A stretch of DNA of 64,000 bases from Gemmatimonadota bacterium. GTDB taxonomy: Bacteria > Gemmatimonadota > Gemmatimonadetes > Longimicrobiales > Gaopeijiaceae. The stretch lies in contig SHZR01000005.1 of the NCBI GenBank assembly GCA_009692205.1, positions 62,001 through 126,000 of the forward strand, read 5' to 3'. A program made the position numbers and the translations under genes. The notes beneath the pieces are model-generated. The model did not search any database. It saw nothing but the letters and a program-made list of their open reading frames with translations, and had not been told where the DNA came from. Positions 37,228 through 42,392 of this stretch are shown piece by piece (position 1 is the stretch's first letter; the number at the start of each line of letters is the position of its first letter).

Positions 37228-38334
37228 CTAGCCTCCGACATAGGACATTTCGATCTTGGGGAGCGTGACTGTTTCCTCCGAGCGAATCTCCGAGTAACGG
37301 TCGCCCCGAGATTGCCACACGCCAGAAATGGCGTCCGTGATGTCGTCGTCGCTGGCGCCGCCGCGCAGGAGAGACCGCAGGTCGTGGCCATTGGTCGCAA
37401 ACAGGCAGGTGAACAGCTGACCGTCCGCCGACAGCCTGGCGCGACTGCAATCGCGGCAGAAAGGCTGCGTCACCGACGCAATGATTCCGATCTCGCCGCC
37501 GCCGTCGCGATAGCGCCACCGCCTTGCGACTTCTCCGCGATAGTTCGAGTCGATTGGCTCAATGGGCAGTTCGGCATGGATCGTCGCGAAGATCTCCGCG
37601 GCCGAGACGACATCATTGAGACGCCAGCCGTTCGAGTGCCCCACATCCATGTACTCTATGAAGCGCAGGATCTGGCCTGTGCCACGGAAGTACCGGGCCA
37701 TCGGCAGGATGCTGTGCTCGTTCACGCCCCGCTTGACCACCACGTTGATCTTGATGGGGGTGAGGCCGACCCGAGCGGCCGCGTCGATTCCGGCCAGCAC
37801 TCGCTCGACCGGGAAATCGACATCGTTCATCGCCCGGAAGACCTCATCATCCAGCGAATCGAGGCTCACCGTCACGCGACGAAGGCCGGCTTCCTTGAGC
37901 GCGTGCGCCTTCTCCGCGAGCAGGGAGCCGTTGGTCGTCAGCGTAAGGTCCAGCCTGGGGATGGGCGCCAGCATGGCAATCAGGTCTTCGAGCTCTCGGC
38001 GAAGTAGCGGCTCACCGCCGGTGATGCGGACCTTTTCCACACCGAGGGCCGCGAAGATCCGAGCCAGGCGGGCGGTCTCCTCGAACGTGAGGAGCTTCTC
38101 GCGCTCCAGGAAGTGGTGGTCACGGCCGAAGACCTCCTTCGGCATGCAGTAGATGCAGCGGAAGTTACAGCGGTCGGTGACGGAGATCCGAAGGTCTCGC
38201 AAGGGCCGCTGCAGACTGTCGGTCAACGTGTGACGGGTCGCCGGGCAGATCCCTGGTAGCCTCTCGGGACCAGCAGATAGGTGTGTCGCACCAGGCGCGT
38301 GGTGGTGGTCAGGATGCGGGTCGGTGTTCAGCAT
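37228..38334 (-). CDS. moaA: GTP 3',8-cyclase MoaA (radical SAM)
   Basis: 368 residues from ATG 38334. N-terminal radical SAM motif [12 protein letters not shown] (CxxxCxxC), [13 protein letters not shown], and a second cluster in the C-terminal part, [19 protein letters not shown]. The chain ends in Gly-Gly (SYVGG), the tail needed for activity in true MoaA. The first step of molybdopterin synthesis from GTP. The N-terminal ~45 residues are His/Pro-rich and atypical. No moaC, moaD, moaE or moeA gene is in the window. In a divergent arrangement with nfuA (217-base intergenic region). Confidence 0.93.
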
Positions 38335-38551
38335 GCCTAGGGTCCCTTTCTTCGCACCACGCTTGTCCTCTTTTACACCTCGACCTCGATATCGGTCTCC
38401 GTCACGCAAACGCCGCGGCGCACAACGGCTTGCTTGGCCGGTGGACCCAGGACTTCGCCCGTCCGGACGTCGAACGTGGTGTGACGGCCGCCACATGATG
38501 CCGCTAGATTGAGTCCTGTCCATCGACCAGCCCAGAGCCGCCGCCTGAGCC

Positions 38552-39163
38552 ATGAGCCACAGCACGAAGGCGCCCGTCGAATTCACTGCTGTCGCGCGCG
38601 ACACGGTCCGCCGGTTCATGCAGGCGAGCGAGGATGCGAACTTCGCTGTCCGAATCCGGGTTGGGAGCCCAAGTCCGCTTGATCCCCGTTACGAAATCAC
38701 GCTGATCGAGCGCGATGAGAAATCCGACGAAGATGTCGTGTTCGACGAGGATGGGTTCGAGGTCGTCATGGACCCCGAAAGCGCGAGGATCCTTGATGGC
38801 GCCCGTATCGATTGGATCGAGACCATGATGGAGAGCGGGTTCAAAGTGGAGAACCCGAACCTGGCGCCGATCGGCTCCAAGCCGTTGGAGGGCCCTCTCG
38901 CCGACCGGGTTAGGCAGGCGATCGATCAATACGTGAACCCTGGCGTCGCGCAGCATGGCGGTCACGTGACGTTGGTCGAGGTGAGGGACGACATCGTCTA
39001 CCTCCAGATGGGCGGGGGCTGCCAGGGATGCGGAATGGCGTCCGTAACCCTGAGCCAGGGGATCGAGAGAATCCTCAGGGAACAGGTGCCGGAGATCGCT
39101 GGCATCCAGGACGTAACCAACCACTCGGCTGGCGATAGCCCTTACTTCGCTGCCGCGAAGTAG
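38552..39163 (+). CDS. nfuA: NfuA-type Fe-S carrier protein
   Basis: 203 residues, near the 191 of Escherichia coli NfuA. Residues ~8-105 are a degenerate A-type (IscA-like) domain lacking cluster cysteines. The C-terminal NifU domain (~115-190) has the CxxC motif in [14 protein letters not shown]. NfuA delivers [4Fe-4S] clusters to target enzymes. It lies between two radical SAM genes (moaA and the B12-type enzyme) and upstream of an ATP-grasp gene, so the likely clients are these two. ATG at 38552; 25 bases before the ATP-grasp gene. Confidence 0.88.
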
Positions 39164-39188: not shown

Positions 39189-40430
39189 GTGCCAAGGGTC
39201 CTGCTCCTGTTCGCCCGAACGAGCTATCGAGCCGAAGCTTTCCTCGTAGCGGCCCGCCGCCTCGGCGTGGACGTGACCGTGGGTTCGAATCATCGGCAGG
39301 TGCTGGCCGATCTCGCTCCAGGTAGCACTCTGACTGTCGGAGTTAGTGACGTCGAGCGATCCACGGCCACTATCGTGCGGTTCGCCTCCGACTACCCGCT
39401 GGCGGCGATCGTGGCGGCAGAGGACGACTTCACGCCGCTGGCGGCAGCGGCGTCCGAGGCTCTCGGACTGAGGCACCATCCGAGTGACGCGGTCCGATGC
39501 GCGCGAAACAAGGCCCTGATGAGGAGCCGACTCTCCGCGGCGGGATTCTCATCACCTTGGTTCCACGTGGCCTCACTCCACGACGATCCGGTGCGTGTGG
39601 CGTCGAGGACCGGCTTTCCCTGTGTTCTGAAGCCGCTCTCGCTCTCGGCCAGCCGCGGTGTGATCCGGGCCGATGCGCCCGAGGAGTTCGTCCGCGCCTG
39701 GCACCGCATTCGGGGAATTCTCGAAGCAAGCGACGTCGTTGAGCGAAGTGGAAGCTTGGCGGCCGAAATCCTGATCGAAGCTTACCTGCCGGGGCGTGAG
39801 GTGGCCGTCGAAGGGATCGTGGTCGGTGGCGAGCTCCTTACGCTTGCCCTCATGGACAAGCCGGACTCCATGGAGGGGCCATTCTTCGAGGAGACCATCC
39901 TCCTGACTCCTTCGCGTTTTCCAGATAAGGTCCAAGACGACATAGTGTCCGTGGTGCGGCGCTGCGCTGCCCATCTGGGCCTCGATGACGGCCCCATCCA
40001 CGCGGAGTTGCGTGTTGACGCGGACCAAGTCTCACTGCTTGAGATCGCCCCGCGCTCGATCGGCGGTCGTTGCTCCGCGATCCTCAGGTTCGACCCAGAT
40101 GCCACACTGGAGGAGCTTATTGTTCGCCACGCGCTGGGCATGCCGCTTCAGGGCTTCAAACGAGAGCCGCGGGCCTCGGGGGTCATGATGCTGCCGATTC
40201 CCATGGCCGGTATCCTGCGCGAGGTCGCCGGCGTTGACGCGGCGCTGCAGGTGGCGGCCATCGAAGGGCTCGAGCTCACGATCCCGCTCGGCCAAACCGT
40301 GGTGCCGCTCCCCGAGGGCAATCGATACCTGGGGTTCCTGTTCGCCAGGGCGGACAGCCCGGATCAGGTGGAGACCGCTCTCAGGCTCGCGCACGCTCGA
40401 CTCGACGTGAAAGTCGAGCCACCCGGATGA
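39189..40430 (+). CDS. ATP-grasp ligase, amino-acid-ligase-like
   Basis: 413 residues. N-terminal preATP-grasp domain (PRVLLLFARTSYRAEAFLVA), ATP-binding region with FPCVLKPLSLSASRGVIRA, AYLPGREVAVEGIVVGGELL and the metal-ligand strand SLLEIAPRSIGGRCS (Glu and Arg/Asn-type ligands), and a C-terminal domain (~310-413) resembling the L-amino-acid ligase extension (SGVMMLPIPMAGIL). It would join a carboxylate to an amine through an acyl phosphate. No biotin-type or carbamoyl-phosphate context. Convergent with DUF2203; follows nfuA by 25 bases. ATP-grasp plus radical SAM suggests modification of a small molecule or peptide. Confidence 0.85.
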   Translation: MPRVLLLFARTSYRAEAFLVAARRLGVDVTVGSNHRQVLADLAPGSTLTVGVSDVERSTATIVRFASDYPLAAIVAAEDDFTPLAAAASEALGLRHHPSDAVRCARNKALMRSRLSAAGFSSPWFHVASLHDDPVRVASRTGFPCVLKPLSLSASRGVIRADAPEEFVRAWHRIRGILEASDVVERSGSLAAEILIEAYLPGREVAVEGIVVGGELLTLALMDKPDSMEGPFFEETILLTPSRFPDKVQDDIVSVVRRCAAHLGLDDGPIHAELRVDADQVSLLEIAPRSIGGRCSAILRFDPDATLEELIVRHALGMPLQGFKREPRASGVMMLPIPMAGILREVAGVDAALQVAAIEGLELTIPLGQTVVPLPEGNRYLGFLFARADSPDQVETALRLAHARLDVKVEPPG

Positions 40431-40441
40431 CGCGCAGGAAG

Positions 40442-40945
40442 TCACCGACTTTCGTCGAAGGTGCCGGGTGCCGGATCTTCGCGGCGGGGCGGGTCATCCG
40501 ACCGACCCAACCTCTGACCTTGCCTCGCAGTAATCCGGCGCCGACCGGCGTAGCCTCCGCTCAATTCGTGCCAATACGCCACCCTGGGCTCGTTTGACTG
40601 CCAACAGAGGTAGACCCAACGGCCGTCCAGAGTGGTCGGAAAGTCGACCAGTCCGTGCTCGAGGCCGCCGACCGGAAAGCGGATGTCCCGGCCGATGAGT
40701 CGCCCTTGGATGAGCTCCTCGATCGCCCGACCGTACTCCGCGAGTGAATGACGATGCTGCATGTATTCCTCGTGGTCCGGGTTGGCGCTTTGCGAGACGA
40801 GGTCGCCCCAAAGAGCGTCCAGCACGGCCAGCTGGTCCATCTTGCTGCGCGCCGCGTCGCGAAGACCGTGGATCTCGTCGAGGACGGCCCGTACGTCCGG
40901 CAGCATCGCGTTTGCCTCGTCGACCGTGAAGGCATGATGGCGCAA
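40442..40945 (-). CDS. DUF2203 family protein
   Basis: 167 residues from TTG 40945, with GGAGAG ahead. The family opening FTVDEANAMLPDVRAVLDEI, the helical middle LRDAARSKMDQLAVL, and the ending segment DFPTTLDGRWVYLCWQSNEP with AYWHELSGGYAGRR are typical. Function unknown. It begins 5 bases after the stop of the radical SAM selenoprotein, so the two are co-transcribed and the SECIS-like hairpin sits just upstream of its start. The C-terminus extends beyond the usual family end with charged residues. Confidence 0.82.
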   Translation of the reverse strand: MRHHAFTVDEANAMLPDVRAVLDEIHGLRDAARSKMDQLAVLDALWGDLVSQSANPDHEEYMQHRHSLAEYGRAIEELIQGRLIGRDIRFPVGGLEHGLVDFPTTLDGRWVYLCWQSNEPRVAYWHELSGGYAGRRRITARQGQRLGRSDDPPRREDPAPGTFDESR

Positions 40946-40949
40946 TCGT

Positions 40950-42392
40950 CTAGCTCTCCGATCCTCTCACCGTGGTCACAGAGCCGAACTGGCTCTCGGT
41001 CGGCTCAGCTCAACAGAACCACGCTTCGGTCAACTGAGGCGGCCTGACACGTCGACGGCGGTATCTGGGTCGGGCCACGGCTGGCTGGTCGGAAAGAGTC
41101 GCAAGCGTAAGCTCCTTGATCCGGTAGAACGTCGTTGCCGGATCTTCACTCGAGCTGGTCGCTTCTTCCGCGACTCGCGCGACCTGCCGTTGTAGCATGT
41201 CCACACGGGGATCCGGATGCTGCCACGAGTACACGAAGTCCTCCTGAACCAGGCTCCCCAGGTGAGGTTGGATCTCCGGAATGTCGAGCAGCCATGAGCC
41301 TCGAGGCAGGAGGAGCCTGATGGAGTAGTGCACCGGATCGACCTGATCGATCAGATCGTGGTCCTGCACGAACTCGAGCAGCTCCAAATACCCCGACAGC
41401 GTTGTCCAGGGCGTGAACGGCAGCAGCGAGGGGCGGAGCGCTACGTTGGTGGCTCGCGTAATCGACAGGGCAGCAACCACATCACTGCGGGTGTGACCCT
41501 TGTCGAGATAGCCAAGAATACGGTCGTCCACACTCTCCACAGCGGACAGAACGAAGATGCACCCGAGCGCTGCCAGCTCCCTGACCGCGTCACGATGCTC
41601 GATCAGGTGCTCGATCTTGGCCGTGAAATCGAAGCTCAGCTCGGGGTGGCGCTTACGCATCTCTCGAACAATCCCGAGCGAGTGCTTCACGGCGTTCAGG
41701 AAATCCGGGTCACCAAAATCGATGTGCTGCGCGCCCCGACGCACAAGGTCGTCGATGTCTGCAAGCACGACATCCTGCTGCACTATGCGAAGCCTCCCCT
41801 CATAGACAGCGGGGATCGGGCAGTGGCGGCACCGGTGAGCACAGCCGCGGCTGGCCTCGACATAGCCCACCAGCCGGAGCTCCCCCTCCGATGTCCTCAG
41901 GCGGGCATACTTCTCCAGGGGAGGCAGCAGGTGTCGCGCTGGTGGGAGAAACTGCTGCCGAGACAGGTTGGGCGGACCACGCTGCGCGGCGAGAGAGACA
42001 CCTCCCGGACGAGGCAGTTGATTCTCGGCTAACCGGTCGACGTGCTGAGTAAGCGGCGTCTCGAATTCACCGCCGATCACGCTGTCGGCAACGCCGTCGA
42101 GGAGGTAGTCCTCGTTAAGAGAGGCGTAGAGCCCGAAGTAGCAGATGTGGCAACGCGGATTCAATCTCCGGACCAGCTCACCGGCTTTGACGCCGAGTCG
42201 GAGCGCGGTGTGCATGGGAGTCGAGATCCCGACAAAGTCGGCTCGACGGACTTTGGCTTCGTCGAGAACCTCGACCGCGAGATCCAGGCACTCCACTCGA
42301 TGGCGGCCTTCAGCGAGTAAGTGTGCGCCAGCGGACGCTACTCCGAACGGCTGATGGCCGAGCTCGTAGCAGGAGATGAGGAGCACGTTCAT
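40950..42392 (-). CDS. B12-binding radical SAM protein with Cys-Sec-Ala-Glu-Pro tail (probable selenoprotein)
   Basis: 480 residues if UGA 41012-41010 is read as selenocysteine (residue 461). The N-terminal ~130 residues form a cobalamin-binding-like Rossmann domain (MNVLLISCYELGHQPFGVAS). The radical SAM core starts VEASRGCAHRCRHCPIPAVY (CxxxCxxC) and contains HIDFGDPDFLNA. The chain would stop at ...LTEAWFC with TGA, but the same frame continues Ala-Glu-Pro and 16 more residues to TAG at 40952-40950, giving CUAEP. A family of radical SAM proteins with CUAEP or CCAEP tails is recognised, to my knowledge without known function. A hairpin 14-30 nt after UGA fits a bacterial SECIS. The following gene starts 5 bases after TAG. 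Confidence 0.85.
40980..41012 (-). promoter_or_regulatory. Candidate SECIS element at the UGA of the radical SAM gene
   Basis: UGA at 41012-41010. From 14 to 30 nt after it lies AGAGCC-AGTTC-GGCTCT (40996-40980): a perfect 6-base stem, 5-nt loop, with G as second loop base, and the loop starts 20 nt after UGA. This agrees with the known bacterial SECIS pattern (short apical stem, G in the first two loop bases, 16-37 nt from UGA). An alternative longer stem uses GAGCCGA near the UGA. Confidence 0.55.

Follow-up and report, generated by a model that had tools for sequence, protein, structure and literature searches.

A radical SAM gene on the minus strand of the 64,000-nucleotide Gemmatimonadota sequence analysed here (the window) contains an in-frame UGA that is followed by a short hairpin. 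The question raised by this locus is whether the hairpin is a signal for reading the UGA as selenocysteine (Sec) or a structure with another origin or role. Judged by comparison with homologous genes, the hairpin is almost certainly a bacterial SECIS within the coding sequence of a radical SAM selenoprotein with a C-terminal Sec (rSAM_CUAEP, NF040546). The original prediction had also read it as a SECIS, and this is supported by the stem in UGA homologues, its loss in Cys homologues, agreement with the bSECIS constraints and the Sec machinery encoded in the genome. The features of the locus are collected in Table 1.

Table 1. Features of the locus; nt numbers of the hairpin count the U of the UGA as nt 1
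Feature	Position in window	Strand	Evidence or remark
Radical SAM selenoprotein gene (predicted), CUAEP/CCAEP-tail family, 480 residues, Sec461, stop TAG 40952-40950	40950..42392	-	translation; NF040546, PF04055
In-frame UGA, codon 461 of the radical SAM gene, predicted to be read as selenocysteine	41010..41012	-	context TTC TGT TGA GCT GAG CCG
Predicted SECIS stem, 5' arm AGAGCC, nt 17-22	40991..40996	-	partner is 40980-40985; over 41 distinct UGA sequences, 94.7% of cells are paired
Predicted SECIS apical loop AGUUC, conserved G-U at nt 24-25	40986..40990	-	homologue loop counts
Predicted SECIS stem, 3' arm GGCUCU, nt 28-33	40980..40985	-	pairs with 5' arm
DUF2203 gene, directly downstream; a neighbour, outside the SECIS	40442..40945	-	PF09969, 91.3 bits

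The hairpin and the reading frame that contains it

When the UGA is read as a stop, the radical SAM reading frame has 460 codons and ends at Cys460. When it is read through, the protein ends in RPPQLTEAWFC-U-AEPTESQFGSVTTVRGSES; 19 codons follow Sec461, and the TAG lies four bases ahead of the upstream start codon of the DUF2203 reading frame, which starts at TTG 40945 or ATG 40935. The protein matches the NCBIfam model NF040546, 'CUAEP/CCAEP-tail radical SAM (seleno)protein', with 626.4 bits (cut-off 500) over positions 1-467 of 468, and its own tail, CUAEP, agrees with the C-[U/C]-A-E-P of the family. It also matches PF04055, while PF02310 is slightly under its cut-off.

From 41012 the minus strand reads UGA GCUGAGCCGACCG AGAGCC AGUUC GGCUCU GUG, with a spacer of 13 nt before the hairpin. 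The hairpin occupies 40980-40996 in plus-strand numbering, 14-30 nt after the UGA, and consists of six Watson-Crick pairs and a loop of five nucleotides of which the second is G. All measurements in the original prediction (a perfect 6-base stem, a 5-nt loop with G in second place, the distance of 14-30 nt from the UGA) were correct, and its loop position, 20 nt after the UGA, agrees with a loop that starts at the 20th nucleotide. The coordinates were also right, but the location of the whole element on the minus strand had been left unsaid.

The bSECIS constraints (PMC13188914) describe an apical loop of 3-9 nt on an upper stem of 4-16 bp, a G at loop position 1 or 2 that is usually followed by G or U, a loop 16-37 nt from the UGA and a hairpin energy no higher than -7.5 kcal/mol. 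The window hairpin falls within each of these limits: the loop has 5 nt and the stem 6 bp, the loop AGUUC follows the rule for G, the loop begins at the 20th nucleotide after the UGA, so that it lies inside the distance known for bacterial SECIS elements as had been claimed, and the energy is -9.8 kcal/mol (nt 12-39). No Rfam family matched the window hairpin.

Taken from the window sequence alone, the hairpin stands only weakly above chance. A hairpin with at least six Watson-Crick pairs and with bSECIS loop and spacing was found at 60 of the 1328 TGA trinucleotides on both strands of the window (4.5%), and the 53-nt fold was not significant (z = -0.15), for which reason single-sequence folding was dropped as proof of a SECIS. 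Synonymous recoding of the window gene gave P = 0.016 for a full stem given the encoded peptide. The minimum-energy structure of the 53-nt fold is a different pairing, of GGCUC at nt 28-32 with GAGCC at nt 7-11; this pairing needs nt 7-11, which are probably covered by the ribosome stopped at the UGA, and nt 1-9 were therefore left out of the fold. The local hairpin then had a probability of 0.95-1 of forming. The alternative GGCUC/GAGCC pairing (40980-41006, minus strand) competes with the predicted SECIS on ribosome-free mRNA and could be due to chance; pairings of the same type are also present in two relatives (L074 and L087).

Comparison of UGA and Cys homologues

Comparison with homologues is decisive for whether the hairpin is to be read as a SECIS. 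One scan of genome contigs seeded with the window protein gave 80 loci, 79 of which reach the tail; together with the window, 80 genes were compared. The codon at the position of the window UGA is TGA in 58 genes (window included) and TGC or TGT in 22, and AEP (GCN GAR CCN) follows directly in 80/80. Among 44 aligned sequences the radical SAM motif CxxxCxxC (C184, C188, C191) is invariant, as is the tail W458 F459 C460 U/C461 A462 E463 P464. These alignments show that the UGA sits at a position conserved in the family as Cys or predicted Sec.

All six pairs are present in 46 of the 58 UGA genes, five in 11 and four in one, so that 57/58 have at least five and about a fifth have five or four rather than six. 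None of the 22 Cys genes has six. The claim that the stem would recur at exactly the same position in UGA homologues, with compensatory changes, therefore held, as did its absence from Cys homologues, in which pairing matches what the protein sequence by itself would give. Hairpins with the named pairs and an energy within the bSECIS limit were found in 48/58 UGA genes and 0/22 Cys genes.

The stem overlaps coding sequence, and the null model was therefore synonymous recoding, in which 1000 versions of each gene were drawn from that gene's codon usage. The UGA genes have a mean of 5.78 of 6 pairs vs 3.90 expected, and the Cys genes 2.59 vs 2.42. A non-redundant set, with one gene per cluster at <75% identity, comprised 33 UGA and 12 Cys genes. 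The 33 UGA genes have 193/198 pairs vs 128.9 +/- 4.7 under the null (z 13.7) and 28 full stems vs 1.3 expected, with a maximum of 6 in 2000 simulations. The 12 Cys genes have 30/72 pairs vs 29.2 (z 0.3) and no full stem (0/12).

Changes on both sides of a pair (G-C to A-U, C-G to U-A etc.) were found at five of the six pairs in the 41 distinct UGA sequences with a 5-nt loop. The covariation score of this set was 0.505 vs 0.265 after shuffling (0/500) and at most 0.186 when the partner was slid. No covariation was found in the Cys alignment (0.134 vs 0.122). Ten further UGA genes hold the stem in a different register, around a 4-nt AGUU loop. Same-phylum relatives from whole genomes agree, with compensated variants such as CGGACC/GGUCCG (L102) and AGAGUC/GACUCU (L105).

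The UGA could be an ordinary stop followed by a chance match in GC-rich DNA, as the frequency of such hairpins at window TGAs and the fold z of the single sequence might suggest; with a conserved peptide after the UGA in every relative, Cys in place of the UGA in 22 of them and a covarying stem, this is extremely improbable. Equally improbable is that the pairing simply follows from the conserved peptide (EGQFGPL/ESQFGS), with no selection for an RNA structure. Random synonymous codons alone do give 3.9 of 6 pairs on average, but the excess over this null in the non-redundant UGA genes is large, the Leu codon at the loop is UUR in every case, and the Cys genes, several of which have a similar peptide, show no excess of pairs.

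E. coli SelB reads the SECIS loop bases G23 and U24. Among the UGA genes, 55/58 have the G-U at nt 24-25 of the present hairpin, as do 9/22 of the Cys genes. UGA genes always encode the Gln before it by CAG (55/55), compared with 11/22 for Cys genes, and the Leu codon after it is UUA or UUG in 31/31 UGA genes, against a background of 550/3086 Leu codons (18%) in the same genes; in Cys genes the Leu codon at the loop is CUG or CUC. These biases are signs of selection on the bases equivalent to those read by E. coli SelB. Together, the stem and loop comparisons show RNA-level selection on the stem and on the loop G-U in UGA genes only.

In a tree of 79 proteins the Sec/Cys label requires four changes vs 19 for shuffled labels, and well-supported branches force only one of the four. 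Phylogenetically independent Sec/Cys pairs numbered one on well-supported branches and four when all branches were counted, which is not enough for a sign test. With so few switches on the tree, only a small number of independent events underlie the evidence that Cys genes lose the stem. SelB and/or tRNA-Sec is encoded in the genomes of four Cys genes (L057, L064, L079 and L080), which have only 1-3 of the 6 pairs; the absence of the stem despite the Sec machinery indicates that it tracks the identity of the codon, not the genome alone. The family provides a clean natural experiment on a SECIS, with Cys-using lineages that have no stem, have kept most of the peptide and in some genomes still decode Sec.

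Selenocysteine machinery and neighbouring genes

The genome of the window encodes tRNA-Sec (66.5 bits; also called as tRNA-SeC by ARAGORN), SelA (554 bits), SelB (323 bits) and SelD (390 bits; L109, G000:C27:29767-30690) and on this basis is classed as Sec-decoding. The SelD gene has its own in-frame TGA, in SHGAG-U-ACK, and SelD is a predicted selenoprotein as well.

The hairpin could also drive generic read-through of the stop codon by a near-cognate tRNA, which would likewise yield the AEPT tail, Sec insertion being deduced from sequence. This has very little probability: the amino acid that replaces the UGA in relatives is always Cys, and SelB or tRNA-Sec was found in 28/28 UGA genomes tested vs 4/22 Cys genomes (Fisher p = 4e-10). 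Counted separately in the 28 UGA genomes, SelB was above the cut-off in 24 and tRNA-Sec in 23; the missing cases are probably assembly gaps.

For the preferred reading, Sec insertion, the established bacterial pathway suggests that SelB with GTP and Sec-tRNA-Sec would bind the hairpin when the ribosome reaches the UGA. SelB would deliver Sec, and translation would then go on through 19 further codons and end at the TAG right before DUF2203. The hairpin lies in the read-through coding sequence, and the same bases would therefore serve twice, as codons of the tail peptide AEPTESQFGS and as the SECIS.

The original prediction had also placed the hairpin 35 nt ahead of the DUF2203 start. This is right for the upstream start, TTG 40945, but the nearness is not part of the signal. 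It is the one point in favour of the hairpin acting on the downstream gene, as a terminator or by controlling its translation. Such a role is most improbable: no terminator-like site was found in the hairpin region, and only two of the 80 genes, those of the window and L020, have DUF2203 nearby, although every UGA gene has the hairpin. A tie between the hairpin and DUF2203 was accordingly dropped.

Other genes recur at the locus. Two genes on the plus strand of the window are convergent with the radical SAM gene: one encodes an ATP-grasp/L-amino acid ligase-like protein (39189-40430; PF13535, PF18603) and the other an NfuA-like protein (38552-39163). Near the 80 radical SAM genes, an ATP-grasp protein with the L-amino acid ligase C-terminal domain was found 35 times, an NfuA-like protein 33 times and a DUF169 protein 21 times. 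The radical SAM gene and the ATP-grasp ligase-like and NfuA-like genes are likely to be one functional neighbourhood, and the recurrence of these neighbours suggests a biosynthetic pathway. The DUF169 protein (PF02596) is downstream of rSAM_CUAEP in L042 and beside it in 20 other loci. A MoaA gene (TIGR02666, 386 bits) is located at 37228-38619 on the minus strand of the window; four other loci also have a MoaA homologue close to their radical SAM gene.

Relation to known enzymes and SECIS elements

The AlphaFold model of the window protein is confident (pLDDT 91.4); a weaker linker precedes the block 451-460, which is at 83. The best Foldseek matches, OxsB, AprD4 and TsrM (E 5e-19 to 6e-18, query TM-score 0.58-0.70), are radical SAM enzymes of known structure that share the overall fold of the predicted model; identity in the structural alignments is 15-18%, and their reactions are not transferable to the window protein. 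OxsB and TsrM bind B12. The Cys460-Sec461 pair might serve, with less certainty than the decoding steps, as a thiol-selenol group in the chemistry of a radical SAM enzyme of the B12-binding type.

The closest other radical SAM family is ArsL of arsinothricin biosynthesis (NF040542; PMC8552651), the next profile after NF040546 with 329.7 bits over about 409 residues. The score is below the cut-off of 450, and the window protein was rejected as an ArsL. The name of the NCBI model for ArsL, rSAM_RCCLKC, suggests a Cys-rich motif there as well, but the Sec tail belongs to the window protein, and the identified neighbours of the latter are not arsQ or arsM. It is conceivable by analogy with ArsL, though unlikely, that rSAM_CUAEP and its ATP-grasp and NfuA-like neighbours make up an undescribed pathway in which the C-terminal Cys-Sec would hold a thiophilic substrate, e.g. 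a metalloid.

A literature search for the CUAEP tail or NF040546 returned no naming paper; key papers on new selenoprotein families lay outside its coverage, and an earlier description of this SECIS is possible. Standard stop-codon rules end the gene at Cys460, and the conserved Sec tail is then lost. The homologues provide strong comparative evidence for true UGA recoding in a radical SAM family with a C-terminal Sec.

The SECIS of E. coli fdhF has a bulged U in its stem, and the window hairpin has none. With the general bacterial SECIS model, as expressed in the bSECISearch constraints (PMC13188914), it shares the 5-nt loop, the 6-bp stem, the loop G-U, the spacing and the energy. The protein has the same full-length profile and C-U-A-E-P tail as rSAM_CUAEP (NF040546); no difference was found, and it is a member of that family. 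As the family is already curated by NCBI as Sec/Cys and listed as selenoprotein, there is little novelty in the predicted SECIS of the window, which adds a well-supported case to a known type of element.
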